Assembly: GCA_903844735.1 (NCBI GenBank)
Contig: CAIMUX010000050.1
Span: forward strand, 1-39,135
Origin: Candidatus Eiseniibacteriota bacterium
GTDB lineage: Bacteria > Eisenbacteria > RBG-16-71-46 > CAIMUX01
Direction: 5' to 3'
DNA length: 39,135 nucleotides
The notes beneath the pieces were generated by a model. The model had not been told where the DNA came from. It was given only the letters and a program-made list of their open reading frames with translations, and ran no database searches. Made by a program: the position numbers and the translations under genes. Below, one piece after another: positions 14,893 through 37,808 of the stretch. Every line of letters starts with the position of its first letter. Position 1 is the stretch's first letter.

Positions 14893-15582
14893 TCAGACTT
14901 CTGGCGTTGGTCGGGCAGACCATGAGCAGGAATCCGTCCGGGGCCCGCGCACCGCCCCGCGCGCGATCGCCGCGAGCGTCTCCAACACCCCCACGCCGTC
15001 GGCAGCCACCGAGGCAAGGCGCGGTCCGCATTCGCCCAGCCGGTCGAGCACCGCATCGATGTCAGCCCGCGGTGTGAGCGGGGCCAAATCCTGCTTGTTC
15101 AACTGAATCACCCGCGGCAGCCGTTCCCAGTCGCGCCCGCACGCCTCCACCGCCTCGCGCGCTTCGAGAAAGCTCCCCACGTTCTCCCGCAGCCGTCGCA
15201 AACGAGAGTCCCAGACAAAGACCAGCCCATCCACCCCGTGCAGCACCAGCCGTCGCGTGACGCGGAAGCGCGGCTGCCCCGGCACGGTGTACAAACGTAG
15301 CCGGATCGGCGCGCCGCGGCCCGGATCGAGGTCGAGCGGAAGGCAGTCGAAGTAAATGGTTCGCTCGCCGGGAGTGTCCAGCGTGATGAGCCGCCCCCGC
15401 AGTTCCGGGCGCAGACGGGCGTGGAGCCACTTCAGGTTCGTGGTCTTGCCGGAAAGCCCCGGACCCCAGTAAACGAGCTTGAGGGGGGTGCCCGTGATCC
15501 GGCCGGGAAATATGCGCCCCGGCATCGTCGCGACACCATCCCCCGGCGGGCCGCTCCCCGGCGTGCCGGTCGACGGCGTCAT
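14893..15582 (-). CDS. MglA-like small Ras-family GTPase
   Basis: Bacterial Ras-like GTPase of 229 residues related to MglA, which sets cell polarity in Myxococcus. The P-loop is VYWGPGLSGKTTN. The G3 region reads RLYTVPGQPRF, with Thr-Val-Pro instead of the Ras Asp-x-Ala, exactly the MglA signature. VDGLVFVWDSRLRRLRENV follows, and LNKQDL is the base-specificity motif. The start used (MTPSTGTPGS, 15582) is seven bases after the stop of the MglB-like gene; an in-frame ATG at 15648 would overlap it. The pair suggests a GTPase with its co-expressed GAP. Whether it controls motility, polarity or something else is not visible. Confidence 0.85.
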   Translation of the reverse strand: MTPSTGTPGSGPPGDGVATMPGRIFPGRITGTPLKLVYWGPGLSGKTTNLKWLHARLRPELRGRLITLDTPGERTIYFDCLPLDLDPGRGAPIRLRLYTVPGQPRFRVTRRLVLHGVDGLVFVWDSRLRRLRENVGSFLEAREAVEACGRDWERLPRVIQLNKQDLAPLTPRADIDAVLDRLGECGPRLASVAADGVGVLETLAAIARGAVRGPRTDSCSWSARPTPEV

Positions 15583-15589
15583 GCGCGGG

Positions 15590-16108
15590 TCAGGCCGAAG
15601 GGCCGAAAAGCCGCCCCATGCCGTCGTCGATGATCCGGTCGACATCATAGCCGTCCTCGGACCCCTCGAAGTCGCCTTCCAGAACCTGTCGCTCGAGCAG
15701 GCCGAGGAGCGGACGCGTCACCTCCTCGAGCCGGGCACGTTCCTTGCGCATAGCGTGGCGCACGAGGCCCAACGTGGTCCGTCCGTCGAAGATGACCGCC
15801 AACACCAACAACGGGTGCAGCGGCGCTAAGACAACGCCACCCTCGATCCCCTGATGGACCACCCACTGCATCGACTCCTCCCCGAGGAGCAACGCCATTT
15901 CTTGGGTGGCGAGGTAGTCGCCGACGGCCAACGAGGCGAAGGTGCCGAGGTCGAAGGTCGGTTCCTCGCCCGCGTAGGTCACGGCATTGCCGGCCGTGTC
16001 AAGCAGGACGGCGGTCGCGGCGCCGGCGCGCTGCAGCGTTCGCTGCAATTCCTTCCAGACCGAACCGAAGTGGAGATCCCACTCCCCCGGGATAGCGGCA
16101 TGATCCAT
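15590..16108 (-). CDS. roadblock/LC7 (MglB-like) protein
   Basis: Protein of 172 residues from MDHAAIPGEWDLHFGSVWKEL, preceded by a G-rich ribosome binding site; a TTG 38 codons upstream is less likely. The segment AGAATAVLLDTAGNAVTYAGEEPTFDLGTFASLAVGDYLATQEMALLLGE has the roadblock/LC7 pattern of MglB, the GTPase-activating partner of MglA. LAVIFDGRTTLGLVRHAMRKE matches the last strand and helix. Immediate coupling to the MglA-like gene supports a partner role. Location after recR is seen in several deltaproteobacterial and related genomes. Confidence 0.8.
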   Translation of the reverse strand: MDHAAIPGEWDLHFGSVWKELQRTLQRAGAATAVLLDTAGNAVTYAGEEPTFDLGTFASLAVGDYLATQEMALLLGEESMQWVVHQGIEGGVVLAPLHPLLVLAVIFDGRTTLGLVRHAMRKERARLEEVTRPLLGLLERQVLEGDFEGSEDGYDVDRIIDDGMGRLFGPSA

Positions 16109-16238
16109 GACCGGCCCCCCCTGGACGACGGGGATGAGGAATCCCCGAAGGTCATCGGCCTCGAGCCAAGCGGCTCGAATCGAGCACGCAGCAAGAAGGG
16201 AAGATCCAGCATCGTCTGTCAAGGAGTTTCTTCGGGCT

Positions 16239-28779: not shown

Positions 28780-30642
28780 GTGTTGAACCGACGCACGATT
28801 CTGCTCATCCTGACTCTCACCGCAGCCGGCGCGCTCCTCGCCTGGGCCACCGCACGCGACCTGCGCTCGAGCACAGAGCAGGCCGAACGCCTTATGGTCT
28901 GGCAGGCGCGGTCCGTCGCGGATCTGATCACCGAGAGCGCGGGCCACGGTCTCGTCGCCTGGCGCAACTGGGAAGACGAGGTGTTCGCCCGCCTGGTCGA
29001 CAACGCGCGCTGGATCGCCGCCCGGGATTCGGTGCGCCATTTGACCGACACCGAGTTGCGCGTGCTCGCGGGCGACCACGGACTCGGCCGGATCAACATC
29101 ATCGACGCGGAGGGACGCCGGACCGCGACAAGCTGGACTCGCCCGAGCAGCATCGGCGGGACTTGGTCGCCCGAGTCCCGCCCGGGTCCGCGCGGGGTGC
29201 ATGCCCCGGTCCTGAAGAAAGGCGAGCGGGTCCAGCGTATCGGCTTCCGCGAAGGGCGGGGTGTACCGGGGGCGCGCTACGCCGTGGCGGTCGCCCGCGC
29301 GGGCGGCGGCGCGATCGTCGTGAACGTCTTCGCCGAATCGTTGCGGATCGCGCAGGACGAGATCAGCCCCGGCCATCTCTTCCGGGCCATGGGCGAAGCG
29401 CATGGGATCCGTTACCTCGTCATCCAGGACACGAGCGGTGTGCTGGCCGCTTCGGCGGACAGCGGCGCCTGGAGTACGGCGGAGGACGACCCGGAGGTTG
29501 CCCGGCTGCTCTCGCCGGCCGCGCAGGGAGATGTCACCGCAACGCCGGGGCGCGCGGAACCACTCGTGACCCGCGAGATCGACACCGCGTTCGGTCGTGT
29601 CTTCGAGGTGCTGTGCCCCGCCCACCTACCCAGCGCCGGACCCGCCGTTCTGCGGGTCGGGCTTTCCCCGGAGCCGCTGGACCGGGCGCAAGCGGCGTTC
29701 CGCCGGCGCGCCCTGACCCGCGCGGGTGTCTTTCTCCTCGCCCTCGGACTCGGCGCCGGGTTGCTCCTCGCCTGGCAACGCCATGCCCTGCTCGACCGGG
29801 AAATCGCCCGCGTTCGCGCGAAACTGGAAGCGAACGAACGTGAGGCGCGCCGCCGGGACAAGCTTGTGGCAATGGGGTCGCTCGCCTCGGGCGTCGCGCA
29901 CGAGATCCGCAATCCGCTGAACACGATCCAACTGACTGCGCAGCAGATGGCCCGCGAGCCTGCCGTGGGAGAGGAGCTGCGCGCGCAGGCGCGCGACATT
30001 CATGCCGAGGGGGCTAGGATCGAGGCGATTGTGCAGCAATTTCTCTCCTTCGCGCGGCCGCGCCCTCCGCGGCTCGAGCGGATGGATGTGGGCAGCGTGG
30101 TCGCCGAGGTCGCCCGCACGGAAGAGCCCGCCTTCGCCGCGGCCGGGGTCACGCTGCGCCTCAAATCCGAGCCGGTCGATGCGGAATTGGACGCCGAGTA
30201 CCTGCGGCAGATCCTTCACAATCTGGTGCGCAACGCGCGCGAGGCGTTCGCCGGACGGACCGGCGACTCCGTCGCGCTCACGGTCCGCCGCCGCCGAGGG
30301 GACGTTGAGATCCGCGTCGAAGACGACGGCCCCGGGATCCCCGCGGCGCTGCGCGACCGGGTGTTCGACCTCTATTTCACGACCAAGCCATCGGGTACCG
30401 GTTTAGGGTTGGCTCTCGCCGCCCAGGCGGCCGCGTCAATGGGCGGGACGCTACGGCTCGACCACGAGCGCGCGCAGGGGACGGCTTTCGTGCTGTCGTT
30501 CCCACGCCATCCCGCGCCGGGAGCAGACGGCAAGCCGGTCGCAGACGCCGAGCCGGTCGCAGACGCCGAGCCGGTCGCAGACGGCGCGAGCGCTGCGACG
30601 GGCGCGGAACAGGTTGCAGGCCGGAAGGGAGATCGGGAATGA
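28780..30642 (+). CDS. membrane sensor histidine kinase (NtrB-like)
   Basis: 620-residue sensor starting at GTG, with GGAGG eight bases upstream. A transmembrane helix (about 6-24) is followed by a periplasmic sensor region of about 285 residues and a second helix (about 311-333, AGVFLLALGLGAGLLLAW). The dimerisation domain has phospho-acceptor His374 in LASGVAHEIRNPLNTIQLTAQQM. The ATPase domain has HNLVRNAREA, VEDDGPGIP and GTGLGLALAAQAAASMGG. The sensor region has no domain I can name. The C-terminus carries three 18-bp repeats (GAGCCGGTCGCAGACGCC, 30535-30586) encoding EPVADA. It overlaps the regulator gene by four bases. Confidence 0.92.
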   Translation: MLNRRTILLILTLTAAGALLAWATARDLRSSTEQAERLMVWQARSVADLITESAGHGLVAWRNWEDEVFARLVDNARWIAARDSVRHLTDTELRVLAGDHGLGRINIIDAEGRRTATSWTRPSSIGGTWSPESRPGPRGVHAPVLKKGERVQRIGFREGRGVPGARYAVAVARAGGGAIVVNVFAESLRIAQDEISPGHLFRAMGEAHGIRYLVIQDTSGVLAASADSGAWSTAEDDPEVARLLSPAAQGDVTATPGRAEPLVTREIDTAFGRVFEVLCPAHLPSAGPAVLRVGLSPEPLDRAQAAFRRRALTRAGVFLLALGLGAGLLLAWQRHALLDREIARVRAKLEANEREARRRDKLVAMGSLASGVAHEIRNPLNTIQLTAQQMAREPAVGEELRAQARDIHAEGARIEAIVQQFLSFARPRPPRLERMDVGSVVAEVARTEEPAFAAAGVTLRLKSEPVDAELDAEYLRQILHNLVRNAREAFAGRTGDSVALTVRRRRGDVEIRVEDDGPGIPAALRDRVFDLYFTTKPSGTGLGLALAAQAAASMGGTLRLDHERAQGTAFVLSFPRHPAPGADGKPVADAEPVADAEPVADGASAATGAEQVAGRKGDRE

Positions 30643-32075
30643 GCGAGCGAGCACTTTCCGGGACGATCGTGGTCGCCGATGACGAGGCCCGGCAGCGAGA
30701 GGCGCTCGCGCGGGCGCTACGCGCGTCCGGACACACCGTCGTCACCGCGGGGGGCGGCGCCGAGGCGGTCGCCGCGGTCCGCGCGCACGCGGTCGACCTC
30801 GTCCTCACCGATCTGCGGATGCCCGACCTGTCAGGACTCGAGGTCGTCCGGCAGGCGAAGGAGATCCAGCCCGAGGTCGCGGTGGTCGTCCTTACGGCCT
30901 TCGGCTCGGTCGGCGATGCCGTCGCGGCGATGAAGGCCGGCGCCGAGGACTACCTCACCAAACCGGTCGATCTCGACGAGCTCGACGTCGTGGTGGCCAG
31001 GATCCTCGAGCGGAGCGCACTGGTTCGCGAGAACCGCATCCTGCGCCGCCGCCTGGATGAAGCGCACGCCGGGTTCCGTCTGCTCGGCCGGGCGGCCGCC
31101 TTGCAGGAGGTCCTCGCGCGCGCCTCTCGCGCCGCCGAGACGGACGCCGTGGTCCTCATTCGCGGAGAGAGCGGCACAGGCAAGGAGCTGCTCGCCCGCT
31201 CAATCCATGCGCTCGGACGCCGCGCCGAGGGTCCGTTCGTAGCCGTGAACTGCGCCGCACTTCCCGAGACGCTGCTCGAGAGCGAGCTCTTCGGTCACGA
31301 GAAAGGCGCCTTCACCGGAGCCGACACGCGCCGCGCCGGCCGGGTCGAACGCGCTCGCGGCGGGACGCTCTTCCTTGACGAAATCGGCGACATCGCTCCG
31401 TTGGTGCAGATCAAGCTCCTGCGCTTTCTCCAGGACCGTGAGTTCAGCCGGCTCGGCAGCGACGAGACGCTGCGCGCGGACGTTCGCGTGATTGCCGCCA
31501 CCCATCGCGACTTGGAGGAGATGATCGCGTCGGGGAGCTTCCGTGAGGATCTCTACTACCGGCTCAACGTGATCAGCCTGCGTCTGCCGCCGCTGCGCGA
31601 ACGGCGCGAGGATATCCCCGAGCTGGCCGAGCACTTTCTCGGCCTCTTCGCCCGCCGCTACGACCGGCCGCGGTCCCGCCTCTCGCACGAGGCGATGGAT
31701 GCGCTGCTCAAGCACCCGTTCCCCGGCAACGTCCGCGAGCTGGAGAACATCCTCGAACAGGCTGTCGTGCTCGCGCGCGGCGACGTCATCACGCGAGCGG
31801 ATCTCCCGGCCACGCTGCGAAGCGCCCCCTCGTCGAGCGCGCCTGCCGGGGCTGCCGCCTCTGCCGCCCCTGCCGCCCCTGCCGCGCCTGCCGCAGCGCT
31901 CAGTCCGGAAGGGATCCACGGTAATCTCGGGGAGCTCTTGGAGGAGATCGAAAAGCGCGTCGTCCTCGACACCCTTCGTCGCTACGAGGGGAACCAGAGC
32001 AGCGCGGCGCGGCACCTCGGTCTCACGGAAAGCGGGCTGCGCTACAAGCTCAAGAAGTGGCAAGACGGAGCCTGA
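30639..32075 (+). CDS. sigma-54-dependent NtrC-family response regulator
   Basis: 478-residue activator. The receiver domain has Asp58 (LTDLRMPDLSG), Thr86 and Lys108 (YLTKPVD). The AAA+ domain has Walker A GESGTGKE (176-183), the sigma-54-contacting GAFTGA loop (223-228), Walker B GGTLFLDEIGD and the arginine-finger region. A Pro/Ala-rich linker with small repeats precedes the Fis-type helix-turn-helix (GNQSSAARHLGLTESGLRYKLKKW). All catalytic residues are intact. It is translationally coupled to the kinase (ATGA). A sigma-54 promoter 235 bases downstream suggests its target is the adjacent exported-protein gene. Confidence 0.95.
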   Translation: MSERALSGTIVVADDEARQREALARALRASGHTVVTAGGGAEAVAAVRAHAVDLVLTDLRMPDLSGLEVVRQAKEIQPEVAVVVLTAFGSVGDAVAAMKAGAEDYLTKPVDLDELDVVVARILERSALVRENRILRRRLDEAHAGFRLLGRAAALQEVLARASRAAETDAVVLIRGESGTGKELLARSIHALGRRAEGPFVAVNCAALPETLLESELFGHEKGAFTGADTRRAGRVERARGGTLFLDEIGDIAPLVQIKLLRFLQDREFSRLGSDETLRADVRVIAATHRDLEEMIASGSFREDLYYRLNVISLRLPPLRERREDIPELAEHFLGLFARRYDRPRSRLSHEAMDALLKHPFPGNVRELENILEQAVVLARGDVITRADLPATLRSAPSSSAPAGAAASAAPAAPAAPAAALSPEGIHGNLGELLEEIEKRVVLDTLRRYEGNQSSAARHLGLTESGLRYKLKKWQDGA

Positions 32076-32131: not shown

Positions 32132-32185
32132 TTCGCAGAGATCTGCGAATCTCGCGCCCGCGCCTCAGCAGGGCAAGGGCGCGAG
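32132..32185. promoter_or_regulatory. inverted repeats upstream of the sigma-54 promoter
   Basis: The 372-base gap 32076-32447 holds regulatory DNA. TTCGCAG-AGAT-CTGCGAA (32132-32149) is a perfect 7-bp-arm palindrome centred about 197 bases before the predicted start site, a good place for an NtrC-type enhancer. CTCGCGCCC and GGGCGCGAG (32151-32159 and 32177-32185) form a 9-bp-arm repeat right after it, and a small ACGGC-TTC-GCCGT hairpin overlaps the regulator stop (32075-32087). Either palindrome could instead end the kinase-regulator transcript. Confidence 0.4.
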
Positions 32186-32309
32186 ACGACCCTGCGCCCC
32201 ACGCACTTTCACCCCCATAGGCAGCAACCCTCGTGATCACAGCACAATCGGCAGCCGCGCTTCTCGTTCCAGCATGCTCCGCCACGACCGGCGGCCCATG
32301 GGACGCGGT

Positions 32310-32326
32310 TGGCACGATCGATGCAC
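32310..32326 (+). promoter_or_regulatory. sigma-54 (-24/-12) promoter
   Basis: TTGGCACGATCGATGCA matches the sigma-54 consensus YTGGCACGRNNNTTGCW at all but one position, with the invariant GG (32312-32313) and GC (32324-32325) separated by exactly ten bases. Transcription would start near 32337, 111 bases before the exported-protein gene. It lies just downstream of an NtrC-class activator that has the GAFTGA loop. Confidence 0.8.
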
Positions 32327-32447
32327 CAACCTGATCACGGGCCGCACGGACGGCTCACATGACGAGGGGCGAGGGGCCGAAAGAACCAAATCGGATCGGT
32401 CGACCGGAGCGCCCCCCAGTAGGTCCAGCAACCACGGAGGTGTTTCC

Positions 32448-33005
32448 ATGAAGCGCACGGCAGTCCTTTTCGCGATCGCACTGATGATCTTCAACACCGG
32501 GTCGGCATGGGCGGGCAACGGTAATGGCAGCGCCAACGGCACCGGCAACGTCAACGGCAGCGACAACGGTCACGGTTCCAGGGTCGGCGGCTTCATCGAC
32601 GAGAACGGAGATGGGTTCAACGATCTCGCGCCCGACGCTGACGGCGACGGCATCCCGAACGGTCTCGATCCCGACTACCAGCGGCCGCAGGATGGGAGCG
32701 GACGTGGCGCCGGCAACGGCGATGGCACCTGCTTGAACGGCAAGACCGGCAACAGCAAGGGGCCCGGCGTCAACAACGGCTCCGGCAAGGGCGACGGCAC
32801 CTGCTTGTACGGCAAGACCGGCAGCGGCGCGGGGCGCGGCTTCAACAATGGCTCCGGCAACGGCACCTGCCCGTACGGCCAGACCGGCAACGGCCCCGGC
32901 ACCGGTCAGGGGACCTGCCCTCAGTCGCCCGGTGGTGGACAGTTCGGTTCCGGGACCTGCGACGGCACCGGCCCGCACGGCTCCACCGGCCGCACGCGGC
33001 GCTAG
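32448..33005 (+). CDS. exported Gly/Asn-rich protein with Ca-binding-type loops and Cys repeats
   Basis: 185 residues with a clear signal peptide (1-22, cleavage after SAWA). Then comes an Asn/Gly-rich stretch (23-43), and then two acidic loops DENGDGFNDL and DADGDGIPNGLDPD like those of dockerin or thrombospondin type 3 repeats, which bind calcium. Residues 91-138 are two nearly identical 24-residue repeats (GDGTCLYGKTGSGAGRG-type), followed by three decaying copies; each keeps GTC, giving five cysteines (95, 119, 141, 157, 171). GGAGG lies eight bases before the ATG. Similar FVDENGDG-type small exported proteins exist in other phyla without known function. Confidence 0.8.
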   Translation: MKRTAVLFAIALMIFNTGSAWAGNGNGSANGTGNVNGSDNGHGSRVGGFIDENGDGFNDLAPDADGDGIPNGLDPDYQRPQDGSGRGAGNGDGTCLNGKTGNSKGPGVNNGSGKGDGTCLYGKTGSGAGRGFNNGSGNGTCPYGQTGNGPGTGQGTCPQSPGGGQFGSGTCDGTGPHGSTGRTRR

Positions 33006-33008
33006 TCG

Positions 33009-33037
33009 ACGTCGCGCCGGCCACCCCGGCGCGACGT
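33009..33037 (+). terminator. 12-bp perfect hairpin between exported protein and barrel genes
   Basis: ACGTCGCGCCGG and CCGGCGCGACGT form a perfect stem around CCACC, four bases after the stop codon. No U run follows, so it is more likely an mRNA-stabilising or attenuating structure than a full intrinsic terminator; the next gene starts 132 bases later. A TGAGGCCGGCG direct repeat follows. Confidence 0.6.
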
Positions 33038-33168
33038 GAGGCCGGCGACATGAGGCCGGCGGCGGGAGAACGGGCGGCGAGGGAACGCAGAGACCCCTGC
33101 CGCCCGGCCGCGTCACCCCGAAACCGAGGCGAATCCGAGCAAAACGATTCCGAACCGGGAGGTCAGCG

Positions 33169-34320
33169 ATGAGACAGACAGTCCGATCCGATGCGACGAT
33201 CAACGCTCCGTTTCGTCCCTCCACACTCGTAGTCATGCTCGCGCTTTTCGCCGCGGTCGGGATGGCGGGCGTCACGAGCCCGGCGTGGGCCGCGCTGGAA
33301 GGCCGGGCGCAGGTCGAAGGATCGTTTCTCGACCACCCCCAGGGCTATGCGGACGAGAAGGCAGCGGGGACCGTCTCGCCTCTCCTGCGGTTATCTTGGA
33401 CGCCGGACGCACCCGGCGCAGTGTGGCGGCTGTTGTACGAGGGCTCATGGCAGCGTCCGCAGGAACCGTCCGCACTCGACCAGCAGGACCACGCCGTCTC
33501 GATCGAATGGTCCCCTGCATCCGCGGAAAACGGAACGGGGGCTTCCGCCGGCGCCCGCGTTCGCATGCACGCCTACCAGGGTGAGTATCAGCCGTATCGG
33601 TTTTGGGGAACCGACGGATATTTCGCATGGCGGGCCCGCCCTTGTGCCGGCTCACTCTTGCGCAGCACCGCCGAACTGCAGGCCCGCAGGTATCCGGACC
33701 TTCCCGAGGAGAGCAGCGTCATCGCGGCCGGCCGCGCCGACCTTCAACGATTCCTGCGGTCCGGCACGACCCTCGGCCTGCTCGCGGAGGCCGCGTACAA
33801 GATCCACCCCGATCCGGCGGCGAAGCGTGTGTGGAACGAGGAGGGGATCCCGACGGCCGTGCGGTTTCGGACCAGGTTCAACGCGGCGCAGGCGCTTGGC
33901 TCCCGGGCGGGCCTGCGGCTGGCGCTCGAAGCCCGCGCCGTGCCGAATGCGATTCCGTTCGTGTCCGCGGACGGCGTGGTCGACACCCCTCTCCTGGACG
34001 AGTTCGCGGCGAGCGGGGGGTCCGGTGAGACGGTGCTGAAGCTCAGCCTCCCCCGCGAGTTCTGGGTCGAGGTGGGAGGCGGCGCGGCGCGATGGGACTA
34101 CGGGGCGTTGCGGTTCCTGACCGCCGACGCCCTCGCGCCCAGCGGGCGCGTAGACGATGAGAGGTGGGTGTTTCTGTTGGCGGAGCGATCGTTCGCGCGC
34201 GGCAACGCGAATACGCTGCACACAAACCTGCGACTGCAGTGGAATCGCCGCGACTCGAGCGTCGCCGCGTACGCGTACCGGGGGCCTGGGGTGACGGCCG
34301 GCCTCGCTTGGGATTTCTGA
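33169..34320 (+). CDS. exported beta-barrel-like outer-membrane protein
   Basis: 383 residues with a signal peptide (about 1-42, hydrophobic VVMLALFAAVGMAGV, cleavage after PAWA). The mature part alternates hydrophobic and polar residues in strands with Arg/Asp turns (VSPLLRLSWTPDAPGAVWRLLYEGSW, TAVRFRTRFNAAQALGSRAGLRLALEARAV). It ends VTAGLAWDF, with the terminal Phe typical of BAM-assembled barrels. GGGAGG lies before the ATG. It follows the sigma-54-controlled gene on the same strand with no promoter of its own that I can see. No family is recognised. Confidence 0.7.
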   Translation: MRQTVRSDATINAPFRPSTLVVMLALFAAVGMAGVTSPAWAALEGRAQVEGSFLDHPQGYADEKAAGTVSPLLRLSWTPDAPGAVWRLLYEGSWQRPQEPSALDQQDHAVSIEWSPASAENGTGASAGARVRMHAYQGEYQPYRFWGTDGYFAWRARPCAGSLLRSTAELQARRYPDLPEESSVIAAGRADLQRFLRSGTTLGLLAEAAYKIHPDPAAKRVWNEEGIPTAVRFRTRFNAAQALGSRAGLRLALEARAVPNAIPFVSADGVVDTPLLDEFAASGGSGETVLKLSLPREFWVEVGGGAARWDYGALRFLTADALAPSGRVDDERWVFLLAERSFARGNANTLHTNLRLQWNRRDSSVAAYAYRGPGVTAGLAWDF

Positions 34321-34474: not shown

Positions 34475-36619
34475 TTACCAGATCCTCACGCGCAAGCTCT
34501 CCGGCCGGCACATCGGCTCGCCGGGCTTGATCCCAAACGCCGCCAGGAACTCCGGGATGTTCGCCATGGGCCCGTTCACCCGCAGCGCCCGCGGGGCGTG
34601 CACGTCGGTCATCACTTGCTGCGCCAGCGCTTCAGGTCGCTGGTCTCCCAGCCACGCCAGCGCATAGCCGAGGAAGAACCGCTGGTCGGGGGTGAGGCCG
34701 TTGAGCTTCTCGCCCTTCTTCCATTGGTCGGTCTTCTGAAACGCCTCGTAGGCGATCACGATCCCACCGAGATCGGCGATGTTCTCCCCCAGCGTGGCGA
34801 ATCCCCGGACATGCAGGTCGCCCACCTTGTAATGATCGAACTGCTCCACGAGAAGGCGCGAGCGCTCGGCGAACTGCACCGAGTCCGCGACCGTCCACCA
34901 CGGCTTCATGTTCCCGTCGGCGTCGTACTGACGCCCTTCATCGTCGAAACCGTGCGTGATTTCGTGGCCGATGGTCGAGGCCCCGGCATAGGAGTAGAGA
35001 ATCGCGTCGTCGATGATCGAGTCAGGTACTCCTGGGATCAGGAAGGCAGCCGCCGGCAACACGATTTCGACGAGGGAGCCGTCGTAGTAGGCGTTGTACG
35101 TTTGCGGCGTCATGTCCCACTCGGTCCGGTCGACAGGTCGGCCGAGTTTCCCCACGCGATAGCGGAACCACCACTGGTTGGCCCGGATCACGTTTTGCAC
35201 AAAGGAGTCGCGATCGATCTCGAGCTGGGTGTAGTCCCGCCACGTGTCCGGATAACCGACTTTTCGGCTCACCCTGGCGAGCTTGGCCAGCGCCTTTTCC
35301 CGGGTCGAAACACTCATCCAGTCGAGCCGCCCGATCCGGTCCCGGTAGGCGGAAAAGATGTCGTCCACGAGCCTTTCATAGCGCGCCTTGGTCGCCGCGG
35401 AGCAATACTTCCTCGCCCAGGCTTGGCCCATCAGCTCGCCGATCTCGCCTTCCTCGGCATCGAGCACTCGCTTCCAGCGCGGGCGTTGGACCTCCGTCCC
35501 GCCCATGATGGTGCCGTAGAAGCGGAAGTCCTCCAGCTCGAACGGGCGGCTCAGCGACTCCGCAAAGTTGGAGACCAGGGCCCACCGCAGGTAGGCCTTC
35601 CAGGTCTCCAGCGGGACCGCGGCGACGACGGAATCGGCCGCGGCGAAGAACTCCGGCTGGCCCACCACCACCGAATCGACCGGCGGAACCCCGAGGGCCT
35701 GGAACTGCTTCCTCCAATCGATGGACGGAGTGAGCCGGTTGAGCTGATCCATCGACATCTTGTTATAGTTGGCCTGTGGATCGCGACGTTCCTCCAGCGT
35801 GCGGGAGGCGCGGGCCAGCTCCGTCTCCAGCGCCACGACCATCCCGGCCTCCTTGTCCGCCGTGTTCCCTTCGTCTCCCAGCAAGCGAAACATGGCGGCA
35901 ATGTGGCGCGGGTACTCATCACGGACCCGTCGTGTCGACGGATCATCGCCGAAGTAATAGTCGCGGTCGGGCAGGCGGATCCCGCCCTGCGAGAGAAAGA
36001 CGACGTGCTGGGCGCTGTTCTTGTCATCCTGGCCGACATACATGCGGTACAGGGGACCCACGCCGTAGGTGCGCAAGAGGGCGATCGCACCCAGCAGGTC
36101 CTCCCGCGAACGGATGGCGGCGATGCGGTCGAGGTCGGGGCGCAGCGGTTCGATCCCCTGCTCCTGGATGCGGGCGGAATCCATCGCAGCGGCCCAGAAA
36201 TCGCCGACCTTCTGGTCAACGCTACCGCCCGACGAGAGTACGGCATCCTGCGGGGGGACACCCCCCAAATGGGGCGCGGCGGCCGGGGCGCTCGCCGCAG
36301 CGGCCGCCTCGCAGATCCCGCGGAGCTGCAGATAGATCTCATCATCCACCAGCCTGCCGATGCCCCAGCTCCGCTCGCTCGGCGGGATCGGATTGGCCTT
36401 GAGCCAGGTGCCGTTGGCATAGAGGAAGAAGTCATCTCCCGGCTTCACCGTCGGATCCAGGTTGCGCACAAGCGGATCCTGATCCGGGGTCAGGCGCGAC
36501 AGAGGCGCGGCAAAGACAGAGGCAACAAGGGCCGCCGCAGCGAGAAGAGCCAGAACGGCCGGGATCGTGAAGGGGGGCAGAAAAGGACCGGGGCAGGCCG
36601 AAACGGAGAATCGTGACAT
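34475..36619 (-). CDS. secreted M13-family (neprilysin-like) zinc metallopeptidase
   Basis: 714 residues from MSRFSVSACPG, with a signal peptide (hydrophobic IPAVLALLAAAALVASVFA). The N-terminal family motif DPTVKPGDDFFLYANGTWLKANPIPPSERSWG is followed by the long helical domain. The catalytic domain has the zinc site GHEITHGFDDEGRQYD near residue 550, the third ligand in FATLGENIADLGG near 610, the substrate-binding NAYYDG and the C-terminal INGP-like RVNGPMANIPEFLAAFG. All catalytic residues are present, so it should be an active oligopeptidase in the periplasm or outside. It converges on the barrel gene. The 36620-36803 gap is a divergent promoter region. Confidence 0.95.
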   Translation of the reverse strand: MSRFSVSACPGPFLPPFTIPAVLALLAAAALVASVFAAPLSRLTPDQDPLVRNLDPTVKPGDDFFLYANGTWLKANPIPPSERSWGIGRLVDDEIYLQLRGICEAAAAASAPAAAPHLGGVPPQDAVLSSGGSVDQKVGDFWAAAMDSARIQEQGIEPLRPDLDRIAAIRSREDLLGAIALLRTYGVGPLYRMYVGQDDKNSAQHVVFLSQGGIRLPDRDYYFGDDPSTRRVRDEYPRHIAAMFRLLGDEGNTADKEAGMVVALETELARASRTLEERRDPQANYNKMSMDQLNRLTPSIDWRKQFQALGVPPVDSVVVGQPEFFAAADSVVAAVPLETWKAYLRWALVSNFAESLSRPFELEDFRFYGTIMGGTEVQRPRWKRVLDAEEGEIGELMGQAWARKYCSAATKARYERLVDDIFSAYRDRIGRLDWMSVSTREKALAKLARVSRKVGYPDTWRDYTQLEIDRDSFVQNVIRANQWWFRYRVGKLGRPVDRTEWDMTPQTYNAYYDGSLVEIVLPAAAFLIPGVPDSIIDDAILYSYAGASTIGHEITHGFDDEGRQYDADGNMKPWWTVADSVQFAERSRLLVEQFDHYKVGDLHVRGFATLGENIADLGGIVIAYEAFQKTDQWKKGEKLNGLTPDQRFFLGYALAWLGDQRPEALAQQVMTDVHAPRALRVNGPMANIPEFLAAFGIKPGEPMCRPESLRVRIW

Positions 36620-36669
36620 GTGCTTCCTCGCGAACGATGATGCGCGGACCAAGGGCACGAGAGCTGCCC

Positions 36670-36692
36670 TGCTACCGGGGCCGATGGTAGCA
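36670..36692. promoter_or_regulatory. inverted repeat in divergent intergenic region
   Basis: TGCTACC (36670-36676) and GGTAGCA (36686-36692) are perfect 7-bp arms around a 9-base GC-rich centre, in the middle of the region between the divergent M13 peptidase and GT8-like genes. The form suits an operator or a small hairpin. No clear -35/-10 pair could be assigned. Confidence 0.35.
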
Positions 36693-36803
36693 TACGCTGG
36701 CAAGGTCGACGCGCTCGCCGGGCGGCCCGCTCCCCGCCGCCGAAACGGGGCGATTCGCGGAGGGGGCGCAAGCCACGGTGTCGAGTCGGGGCAGGAGATG
36801 ACC

Positions 36804-37808
36804 ATGACCGAAACGCTCGGGATTCTCTCGGCTCTATTGCTGGTTCCGCTGGCCGTCTCCATAGGCGATCTGCAGCCGGGTCAGGCCGCCGGACGGAATA
36901 TCATTACCTTCGCCACCAACCCCGAAGACGCGGACGGTCTGCACAACGTCGTCGTTCTCGTGGAGAGCCTCCGCGCCTTCGGCGGTCGGTTCCGCGATGC
37001 CCCGGTGTGGGTCTTCGCGTCGAAGCAGCTACTGGAAAGCGAGAAAATGATGGTGGCCAGGCTCGGGACCCTTCACGCGGAGCTTCGAAGCAGCCGGACA
37101 CCCCCGGAGGCACTCCCCTACTTTCTCGCCAGCAAGGTATTTGCCGCCGCGCAGGCGGAACAGGATGCGGCACAGACGAGCACGTTCCTAGTCTGGATGG
37201 ACACCGACACAGTGGTTCTCCAGGAGCCCGAGGAGTTCATCCTGGCGGACAGTATCAGCTTCGGCTACCGGCCGGTGATGCACCAGCGGATCGGTTCCTT
37301 ATACGCGGAGCCCTTGGACGAATTCTGGAGCCGCGTCTATGCCAAGCTCTCCGTCCCGCCGAACGCGGTCTTCCCTGTCACCACGCCGGCGGACAACAAG
37401 GTCCTGCGCGCCTACTTCAACGCCGGGCTCCTCGTGGTGCGGCCCGAGTGCGGGGTCTTTCACAGGTGGGCCAGGGATTTCACAAGCCTTTATGAGGATC
37501 CCTATTTTCAGGAGGCGTGCCGGAAGGACGAGTTCAAACGGATCTTCCTGCACCAGGTGGCGCTGGTCGGGGCCGTCTTCGGTCAGCTTTCCCCGGCGCA
37601 GATGGTCCTGCTCTCCGACCTGGTCAACGTGCCGCTGTTCTTCAAGGAGCAGTTCGGGGCACAGCGAGAGTTCGATTCGGTCGAGGGCGTGGTTACGCTG
37701 CGCCATGAGTCGTATCTGAGGAACCCGGATGCGCGTTGGCGGGAAAAGCTGAAGGGACCGGCGGATCGGGTCGCGTGGCTTAAGGAGCACTTCCCGGCGG
37801 AGAGATAA
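36804..37808 (+). CDS. GT8-like protein with DxD motif, probably exported or membrane-anchored
   Basis: 334 residues. An N-terminal hydrophobic segment (LGILSALLLVPLAVSI) resembles a signal peptide or anchor. NIITFATNPEDADGLHNVVVLVESLRAFGG starts a GT-A-like fold; VWMDTDTVVLQEPEEF (about residue 131) holds the Asp-Thr-Asp motif that binds the nucleotide-sugar metal ion; YFNAGLLVVRP matches the FNAGxxxxxP motif of GT8-type glycosyltransferases. The chosen ATG has GGAG six bases upstream; an ATG two codons earlier directly abuts that site. Donor and acceptor are unknown. Its last 29 bases overlap a truncated gene on the other strand. Confidence 0.7.
   Translation: MTETLGILSALLLVPLAVSIGDLQPGQAAGRNIITFATNPEDADGLHNVVVLVESLRAFGGRFRDAPVWVFASKQLLESEKMMVARLGTLHAELRSSRTPPEALPYFLASKVFAAAQAEQDAAQTSTFLVWMDTDTVVLQEPEEFILADSISFGYRPVMHQRIGSLYAEPLDEFWSRVYAKLSVPPNAVFPVTTPADNKVLRAYFNAGLLVVRPECGVFHRWARDFTSLYEDPYFQEACRKDEFKRIFLHQVALVGAVFGQLSPAQMVLLSDLVNVPLFFKEQFGAQREFDSVEGVVTLRHESYLRNPDARWREKLKGPADRVAWLKEHFPAER

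Follow-up and report, generated by a model that had tools for sequence, protein, structure and literature searches.

A candidate envelope module that joins a small exported protein with Ca-type loops to a predicted outer-membrane beta-barrel and a sigma-54-type two-component pair in mostly uncultured bacterial phyla

Introduction

The closest parallel in logic to the locus described here, but a different system, is the PEP-CTERM/PrsK-PrsR regulon. PEP-CTERM proteins are often rich in Asn, and PrsK and PrsR define a sigma-54 regulon among them (PMC1569441). PepA of Aquincola is an RpoN-dependent PEP-CTERM protein involved in floc formation (PMC9850573; PMC1569441), and a stem-loop lies between pepA and prsT, in the same place as a hairpin in our locus (PMC9850573). 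Common to both are a tandem kinase and sigma-54 activator, an upstream enhancer with a -24/-12 site, and a small exported protein as the target, with a stem-loop after its gene. Other described systems resemble the locus in single parts. ZraPSR of E. coli (zinc/envelope stress) likewise groups the genes of a kinase, a sigma-54 regulator and an exported protein, although that exported protein, ZraP, is unrelated to ours, and an outer-membrane barrel is added here. Slam, the outer-membrane protein of type 11 secretion (PF04575), is a barrel whose gene adjoins that of a small exported protein, as is also true of this study's barrel, which however is devoid of a TPR domain, while our small protein has no 8-strand barrel like that of T11SS cargo. 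The 16-strand fold is shared with TpsB proteins (CdiB, FhaC), from which our barrel differs by the absence of POTRA. Finally, tandem loops of the DxDxDGxxDxxD type are known from thrombospondin type 3 and bacterial TSP3 proteins (PF02412, PF18884); in our case, in contrast, the whole protein has about 100-270 aa in the family and a C-terminal motif of its own.

The locus was found in a 39,135-nt stretch of Candidatus Eiseniibacteriota DNA (contig CAIMUX010000050.1), called the window below. According to the sequence analysis, its main feature lies beyond what the preliminary description of the small protein had in view, and consists of a conserved regulator pair, an enhancer, a sigma-54 promoter and a partner beta-barrel. 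No description of such a module was found in the open-licence literature.

Results

The gene of the small protein (32448-33005, forward strand) is an intact open reading frame for 185 aa with an ATG start. Reading of this frame confirmed an exported product with an Asn/Gly stretch, two Ca-type loops and five GTC repeats, as it had been described previously: a signal peptide with a predicted cut at about residue 22 is followed by an Asn/Gly linker, two loops of the DxN/DxDGxxD type (residues 51-59 and 63-74), and GTC motifs at residues 93, 117, 139, 155 and 169. A ribosome-binding site, GGAGG, was read at 32436-32440 (+). The frame could also start in phase at 32274; however, three features favour 32448 as the true start, namely the Shine-Dalgarno site, the signal peptide and a conserved sigma-54 site (32310-32325) that falls inside the extension. 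The C-terminus, GTCDGTGPHGSTGRTRR, contains no hydrophobic segment. Structure prediction gave a largely disordered chain at low confidence (pLDDT 55), in agreement with the nearly helix-free Gly/Asn chain proposed before, and the protein was left out of the fold search. The signal peptide is what suggests export, and the loops would bind Ca2+.

In searches of Pfam, NCBIfam and PDB (by sequence) the window protein had no match, so that the earlier remark that no characterised protein of this build was known still holds. Nothing was found among plasmid sequences, and no relative occurred in a scan of viral contigs, which argues, as far as tested, against a phage gene. The conserved core was then used to scan 84,980 species genomes, which yielded 156 confirmed matches; 79 distinct loci were kept. 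The scan pattern was widened by four constructed core variants, added as extra alignment rows; matches were confirmed with the sequence of the window, and the constructed variants took no part in any later statistics, which are based on real loci only. The family is spread over at least ten little-studied, mostly uncultured bacterial phyla, including Krumholzibacteriota, KSB1, Neomarinimicrobiota/Fidelibacterota, Calditrichota, Chlorobiota, Ignavibacteriota, Zixiibacteriota, Latescibacterota, Gemmatimonadota, Bacteroidota, Acidobacteriota/Aminicenantes and others. By its sequence the small protein thus belongs to an unnamed family and is not an orphan. Most relatives come from metagenome bins with short contigs, in which genes were called mechanically and starts were chosen by rule. 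Among 47 genomes of the window's own phylum, the small protein was present in no other genome, and the barrel gave weak partial matches only. Weak matches in the window's own genome (L002-L004) look compositional and were rejected as relatives.

The conserved core, FIDENGDGFNDLAPDADGDGIPNGLDPD, corresponds to residues 49-76 (32592-32675, +) and reads F-x-D-E-[ND]-G-D-G-x-N-D ... D-x-D-G-D-G-I-P-N-G-x-D-P-D in an alignment of 54 rows. Columns F49, D51, G54, D55, G56, D59, D63, D65, D67, G68, N71, D74 and D76 are invariant over the 54 relatives, and hence the Asp/Asn/Gly positions of the two Ca-type loops described before are those fixed in the family; Asp or Asn at the Ca-coordinating positions (D51, N53, D55, D59 and D63, D65, D67, N71, D74) is mostly invariant. 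By the established TSP3 motif, we read the invariant columns as the residues that would coordinate Ca in two thrombospondin-type-3-like loops. The window protein did not match PF02412 or PF18884 at E<=1, and 3-4 of the 54 relatives matched the TSP3 models at E<1, none of them convincingly (best E 0.055). Apart from the double loop, the conserved part of the family is a C-terminal Cys with a basic tail, GxGxCDGTGP[KH]G plus basic residues, present across phyla (L039, L042, L053, L063, L064, L068, L077, L084 and others). In the window, the GTC repeat region covers 32718-33002 (+), and only its last copy, GTCDGTGPHG with the basic tail, matches this motif; the earlier copies are local, lineage-specific duplications. 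Many relatives repeat instead the Ca-loop unit, up to four times. Disruption of the frame in relatives, named in the preliminary description as something that would refute its proposal, was not observed, the frame being unbroken in dozens of them. Proteins of the family are acidic, with a mean net charge of -9.3.

No more than four gene families recur generally around the 79 loci, many of which lie close to contig ends: the small-protein family itself (62 loci), the barrel (57 of the 79, homologues of ~385-388 aa), the response regulator (49) and the kinase (47). The order in the window, i.e. kinase (28780-30642), regulator (30639-32075), small protein and barrel of 383 aa (33169-34320), is the standard one. 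The gap between the small protein and the barrel is typically 50-100 bp in relatives, with a median of 82. Some loci have a divergent order, or their kinase, regulator or barrel gene lies at a distance of several kb or on a different contig. Both partners also tend to be present or absent together. In the phylum of locus L010 (80 genomes; small-protein matches counted at E<1e-30 only), 21 genomes had both, 2 the barrel only, none the protein only and 57 neither, five weak small-protein matches (1e-7 to 1e-13) being found in these 57 barrel-less genomes; for 40 genomes of the L039 phylum the respective numbers were 23, 1, 3 and 13. Since a genome usually carries one barrel and often several small proteins, the barrel may be expected to act as a shared dedicated partner, either a transporter or an anchor. 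Second copies of the small protein, in tandem or nearby, accompany one barrel in L010, L014, L015, L020, L030 and L062, and some second copies have fewer cysteines or none.

The sensor histidine kinase (28780-30642, +; GTG at 28780, start approximate) is predicted to consist of a transmembrane segment, a periplasmic sensor of ~285 residues, a second transmembrane segment, HisKA (5e-13) and HATPase_c (4e-23). The membrane segments, at positions 6 and 311, are about 290-300 residues apart, a layout common to most homologues, and kinase homologues adjoin the small-protein gene in most loci with enough flank. The sensor domain of the window kinase had no match; a Chlorobiaceae homologue matches sCache_3_2 at 2e-9, which makes a periplasmic small-molecule sensor likely. 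The second regulator (30639-32075, +) is of the NtrC/ZraR type, with receiver (Response_reg, 5e-28), sigma-54 AAA+ (Sigma54_activat, 3e-71) and Fis-type HTH (HTH_8, 3e-13) domains.

Between the regulator and the small protein, a perfect palindrome, TTCGCAGAGATCTGCGAA, is located at 32132-32149. It is shared with relatives and is a probable enhancer (UAS) of the response regulator. Its inner 16 bp, TCGCAGANATCTGCGA, are found also in the Krumholzibacteria-type loci L011, L022 and L031, so the element is nearly letter-for-letter common to the window and distant genomes. The palindrome, located about 115 bp upstream of the -24 element, is TCGAC-N6-GTCGA in most lineages, and TCGCA-N6-TGCGA in the Krumholzibacteria type and the window. 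With at most one mismatch, the palindrome was present upstream in 62 of 76 loci versus 18 of 325 control genes (exact in 38 versus 8); the motif was found on the same loci in which it was counted, and this enrichment is descriptive, though the effect is very large. The exact TTCGCAGAGATCTGCGAA occurs only once in the 5.4 Mb genome of the window, and near matches elsewhere were no more frequent than those of a reversed control (34 versus 35), so the circuit appears to have a single target. No related gene adjoins the single one-mismatch site (L105). The second element is a sigma-54 -24/-12 promoter, TGGCACGATCGATGCA (32310-32325, +; score 20/21), located 138 bp before the small-protein start. 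Such a site precedes the gene in nearly every locus, mostly by 60-100 bp; a score >=19 was reached in 41 of 76 loci, as compared with 1.3% of Markov shuffles and 11 of 445 control genes, and a score >=20 in 26 of 76 loci and 2 of 445 controls. The stop codon of the small protein is directly followed, ahead of the barrel gene, by a 12-bp GC hairpin devoid of a T-run (33006-33039, +), and in 39 of 78 relatives the stretch behind this stop tends to fold (z<-2), which suggests that more small protein than barrel is made.

The partner (33169-34320, +) is a predicted outer-membrane beta-barrel of 383 aa with a C-terminal Phe; an aromatic last residue is found in most members of its family. The AlphaFold2 model (pLDDT 89.3, pTM 0.83) has 16 strands, and only a signal peptide precedes the barrel, which begins at residue 43, so that POTRA and TPR domains are absent from the model. 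Foldseek and VIA-align placed it among outer-membrane barrels, with Z values of 22.6 for CdiB (rmsd 3.8 over 287), 21.6, 21.3 and 20.8 for FhaC, and 21.2 for E. coli CdiB. Porin folds reached Z of 18-19.6, and because of this modest gap the fold does not decide between a transporter and a porin. A tree of the barrels joins the window copy to the Krumholzibacteriota type (99/98), though on a long branch. Lumen-side columns contain conserved Lys/Arg, and the lumen is slightly basic (family mean net charge +3.9), which, set against the acidic small proteins, gives a weak hint of cargo complementarity. SlipAM (PF04575) had no match in the window barrel; 7 of 56 barrel relatives matched it (best E 2e-6), the one match displayed covering 42 residues. 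Membership in Slam/T11SS was rejected; the window barrel has no full-length match and the TPR domain is missing. An MtrB-like electron-transfer porin, considered in view of cytochromes near a few loci, was rejected as well, given the 16 strands of the barrel and the absence of cytochromes from most loci.

In spite of the parallels with PEP-CTERM regulation, the module is not a member of the PrsK/PrsR system. Its regulator scored 397.2 bits against PrsR (TIGR02915; cut-off 502.6) and its kinase 74.6 bits against PrsK (TIGR02916; cut-off 300), and the small protein is without a PEP-CTERM tail (PEP, TM, basic) and without any NCBIfam match. A sigma-54 site and an upstream activator motif, a trait of PEP-CTERM genes, are both present, but the enhancer differs in sequence from the 17-mer ending TTTACA; moreover, the target is linked to a barrel and not to PrsT or an exosortase, and the phyla are other ones. 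The window genome encodes two EpsH-type exosortases above the NCBIfam cut-off, unlinked to the locus (G000:C25:16937-17659, L122, and C2:112736-113449, L123), and a PEP-CTERM-type system, as judged from these sequences, probably coexists there with the sigma-54-controlled surface module.

Discussion

Sequence statistics establish the family, the module, the enhancer, the promoter, the co-occurrence and, by prediction, the fold of the barrel. What the module does is a different question. We give about an even chance to an envelope module in which a two-component pair switches on, through sigma-54, a surface protein that has a dedicated barrel, by which it is probably exported or anchored. A membrane kinase would sense a periplasmic or outside cue and phosphorylate the sigma-54 activator, which would bind the upstream palindrome and open the -24/-12 promoter, causing a burst of the small exported protein; the barrel would be made past the hairpin, hence probably at a lower dose. 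Being a Sec precursor, the small protein may fold only around its two Ca2+-binding TSP3-like loops, the rest remaining a disordered Gly/Asn/Asp chain. The barrel would most likely either let it pass or hold it at the cell surface, where it could form or organise a hydrated, Ca2+-dependent material, although a porin function of the barrel fits nearly as well as export. We put forward more tentatively the narrower proposal of an undescribed outer-membrane export system, in which a surface matrix is built of small disordered Ca-loop proteins secreted by a 16-strand barrel devoid of POTRA and TPR parts, under a sigma-54 two-component regulon in at least ten mostly uncultured phyla. If so, FCB and neighbouring groups (Krumholzibacteriota, KSB1, Calditrichota, Marinimicrobia, Chlorobi and others), nearly all uncultured, would share a switchable surface system which is named in no library, and which can be recognised by the family signature, the partner barrel and the cis-regulatory motif. 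It would also raise the question of how disordered cargo could be handled by a barrel that has neither POTRA nor TPR.

The main rival is a stress or metal module of the ZraPSR/Spy type. The small protein would then buffer metal or Ca in the periplasm, or act on the kinase as a feedback partner, and the barrel would serve as a porin or an efflux pore. This reading is possible but rather unlikely. The kinase and the regulator do resemble ZraS and ZraR in NCBIfam (158.6 and 426.8 bits), but these scores are far below the cut-offs (479 and 760). Pfam LTXXQ and Metal_resist matches were obtained in 6 and 5 neighbours, respectively, and in six Neomarinimicrobiota/Fidelibacterota loci the gene behind the barrel is of the Spy/LTXXQ type, which may hint at a role in envelope stress or metal handling; in most lineages, however, this gene is absent, and the window has no adjoining metal gene. 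Side genes vary by lineage (LTXXQ/Spy-like, DUF2202, DUF4405, cytochromes), which would fit such a role too, whereas the predicted disorder of the small protein disagrees with the helical Spy/ZraP fold.

It is still less probable that the barrel is an uptake porin and that the small protein gates it, plugs it or acts as a co-receptor at the surface, for a nutrient which the kinase senses. The nearly equal scores of porin folds, the conserved charged residues of the lumen and the Cache-like domain of the Chlorobiaceae kinase, typical of small-molecule sensing, would agree with uptake; on the other hand, the hairpin suggests that the small protein is made in excess, and no catabolic or transport genes recur near the loci.

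A separate problem is the cysteine array, in the preliminary description an odd number of regularly spaced residues that could make the protein a covalently cross-linked or metal-binding surface material. The five cysteines (95, 119, 141, 157 and 171) are not regularly spaced, the intervals shrinking from 24 to 22, 16 and 14. The two 24-residue repeats, said to be almost identical, are clearly similar but not nearly identical, since 17 of 24 residues and 62 of 72 nt agree; the self-match of 17/24 is far above chance (maximum 12/24 in 500 composition shuffles). As 7 of the 9 codon differences between the copies are non-synonymous, the stretch seems loosely constrained. Among 80 family proteins, 53 have one Cys, 17 two and 6 none, and five occur in the window protein only, which points to a local elaboration of the window lineage. 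Thus, a covalently cross-linked material as the functional novelty is very improbable, despite five Cys in an exported chain and the closeness of the duplicated copies, given that one or two Cys are the rule in relatives that carry the module and the repeats look so loosely constrained; of the earlier suggestions, export and the Ca-type loops are supported, and cross-linking by this array as the essence of the protein is not.

Several features of individual loci may be added. The Spy-type protein of the Neomarinimicrobiota loci (L016, L028, L049, L052, L056, L082) is a periplasmic LTXXQ/Spy/Metal_resist-type protein of ~156 aa. A DUF4405 gene (cytochrome b-like, membrane) lies beside the module in L053, L055, L072, L077, L080, L081 and other loci of the Calditrichota/Chlorobi type, a DUF2202 gene, presumably ferritin-like, in Ignavibacteria, and cytochromes c in a few loci. 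A full module is present on a contig filed as Heimdallarchaeota archaeon (L083); its barrel groups with Calditrichota/Chlorobi, and the contig is therefore probably mis-binned. In the window, a gene of an M13 (neprilysin-type) metallopeptidase (34475-36862, reverse strand), which is not part of the module in relatives, converges on the barrel gene. Farther away, two adjacent reading frames on the reverse strand (14893-15648 and 15590-16222) look to us like an MglA-type small GTPase and an adjoining roadblock-like protein.
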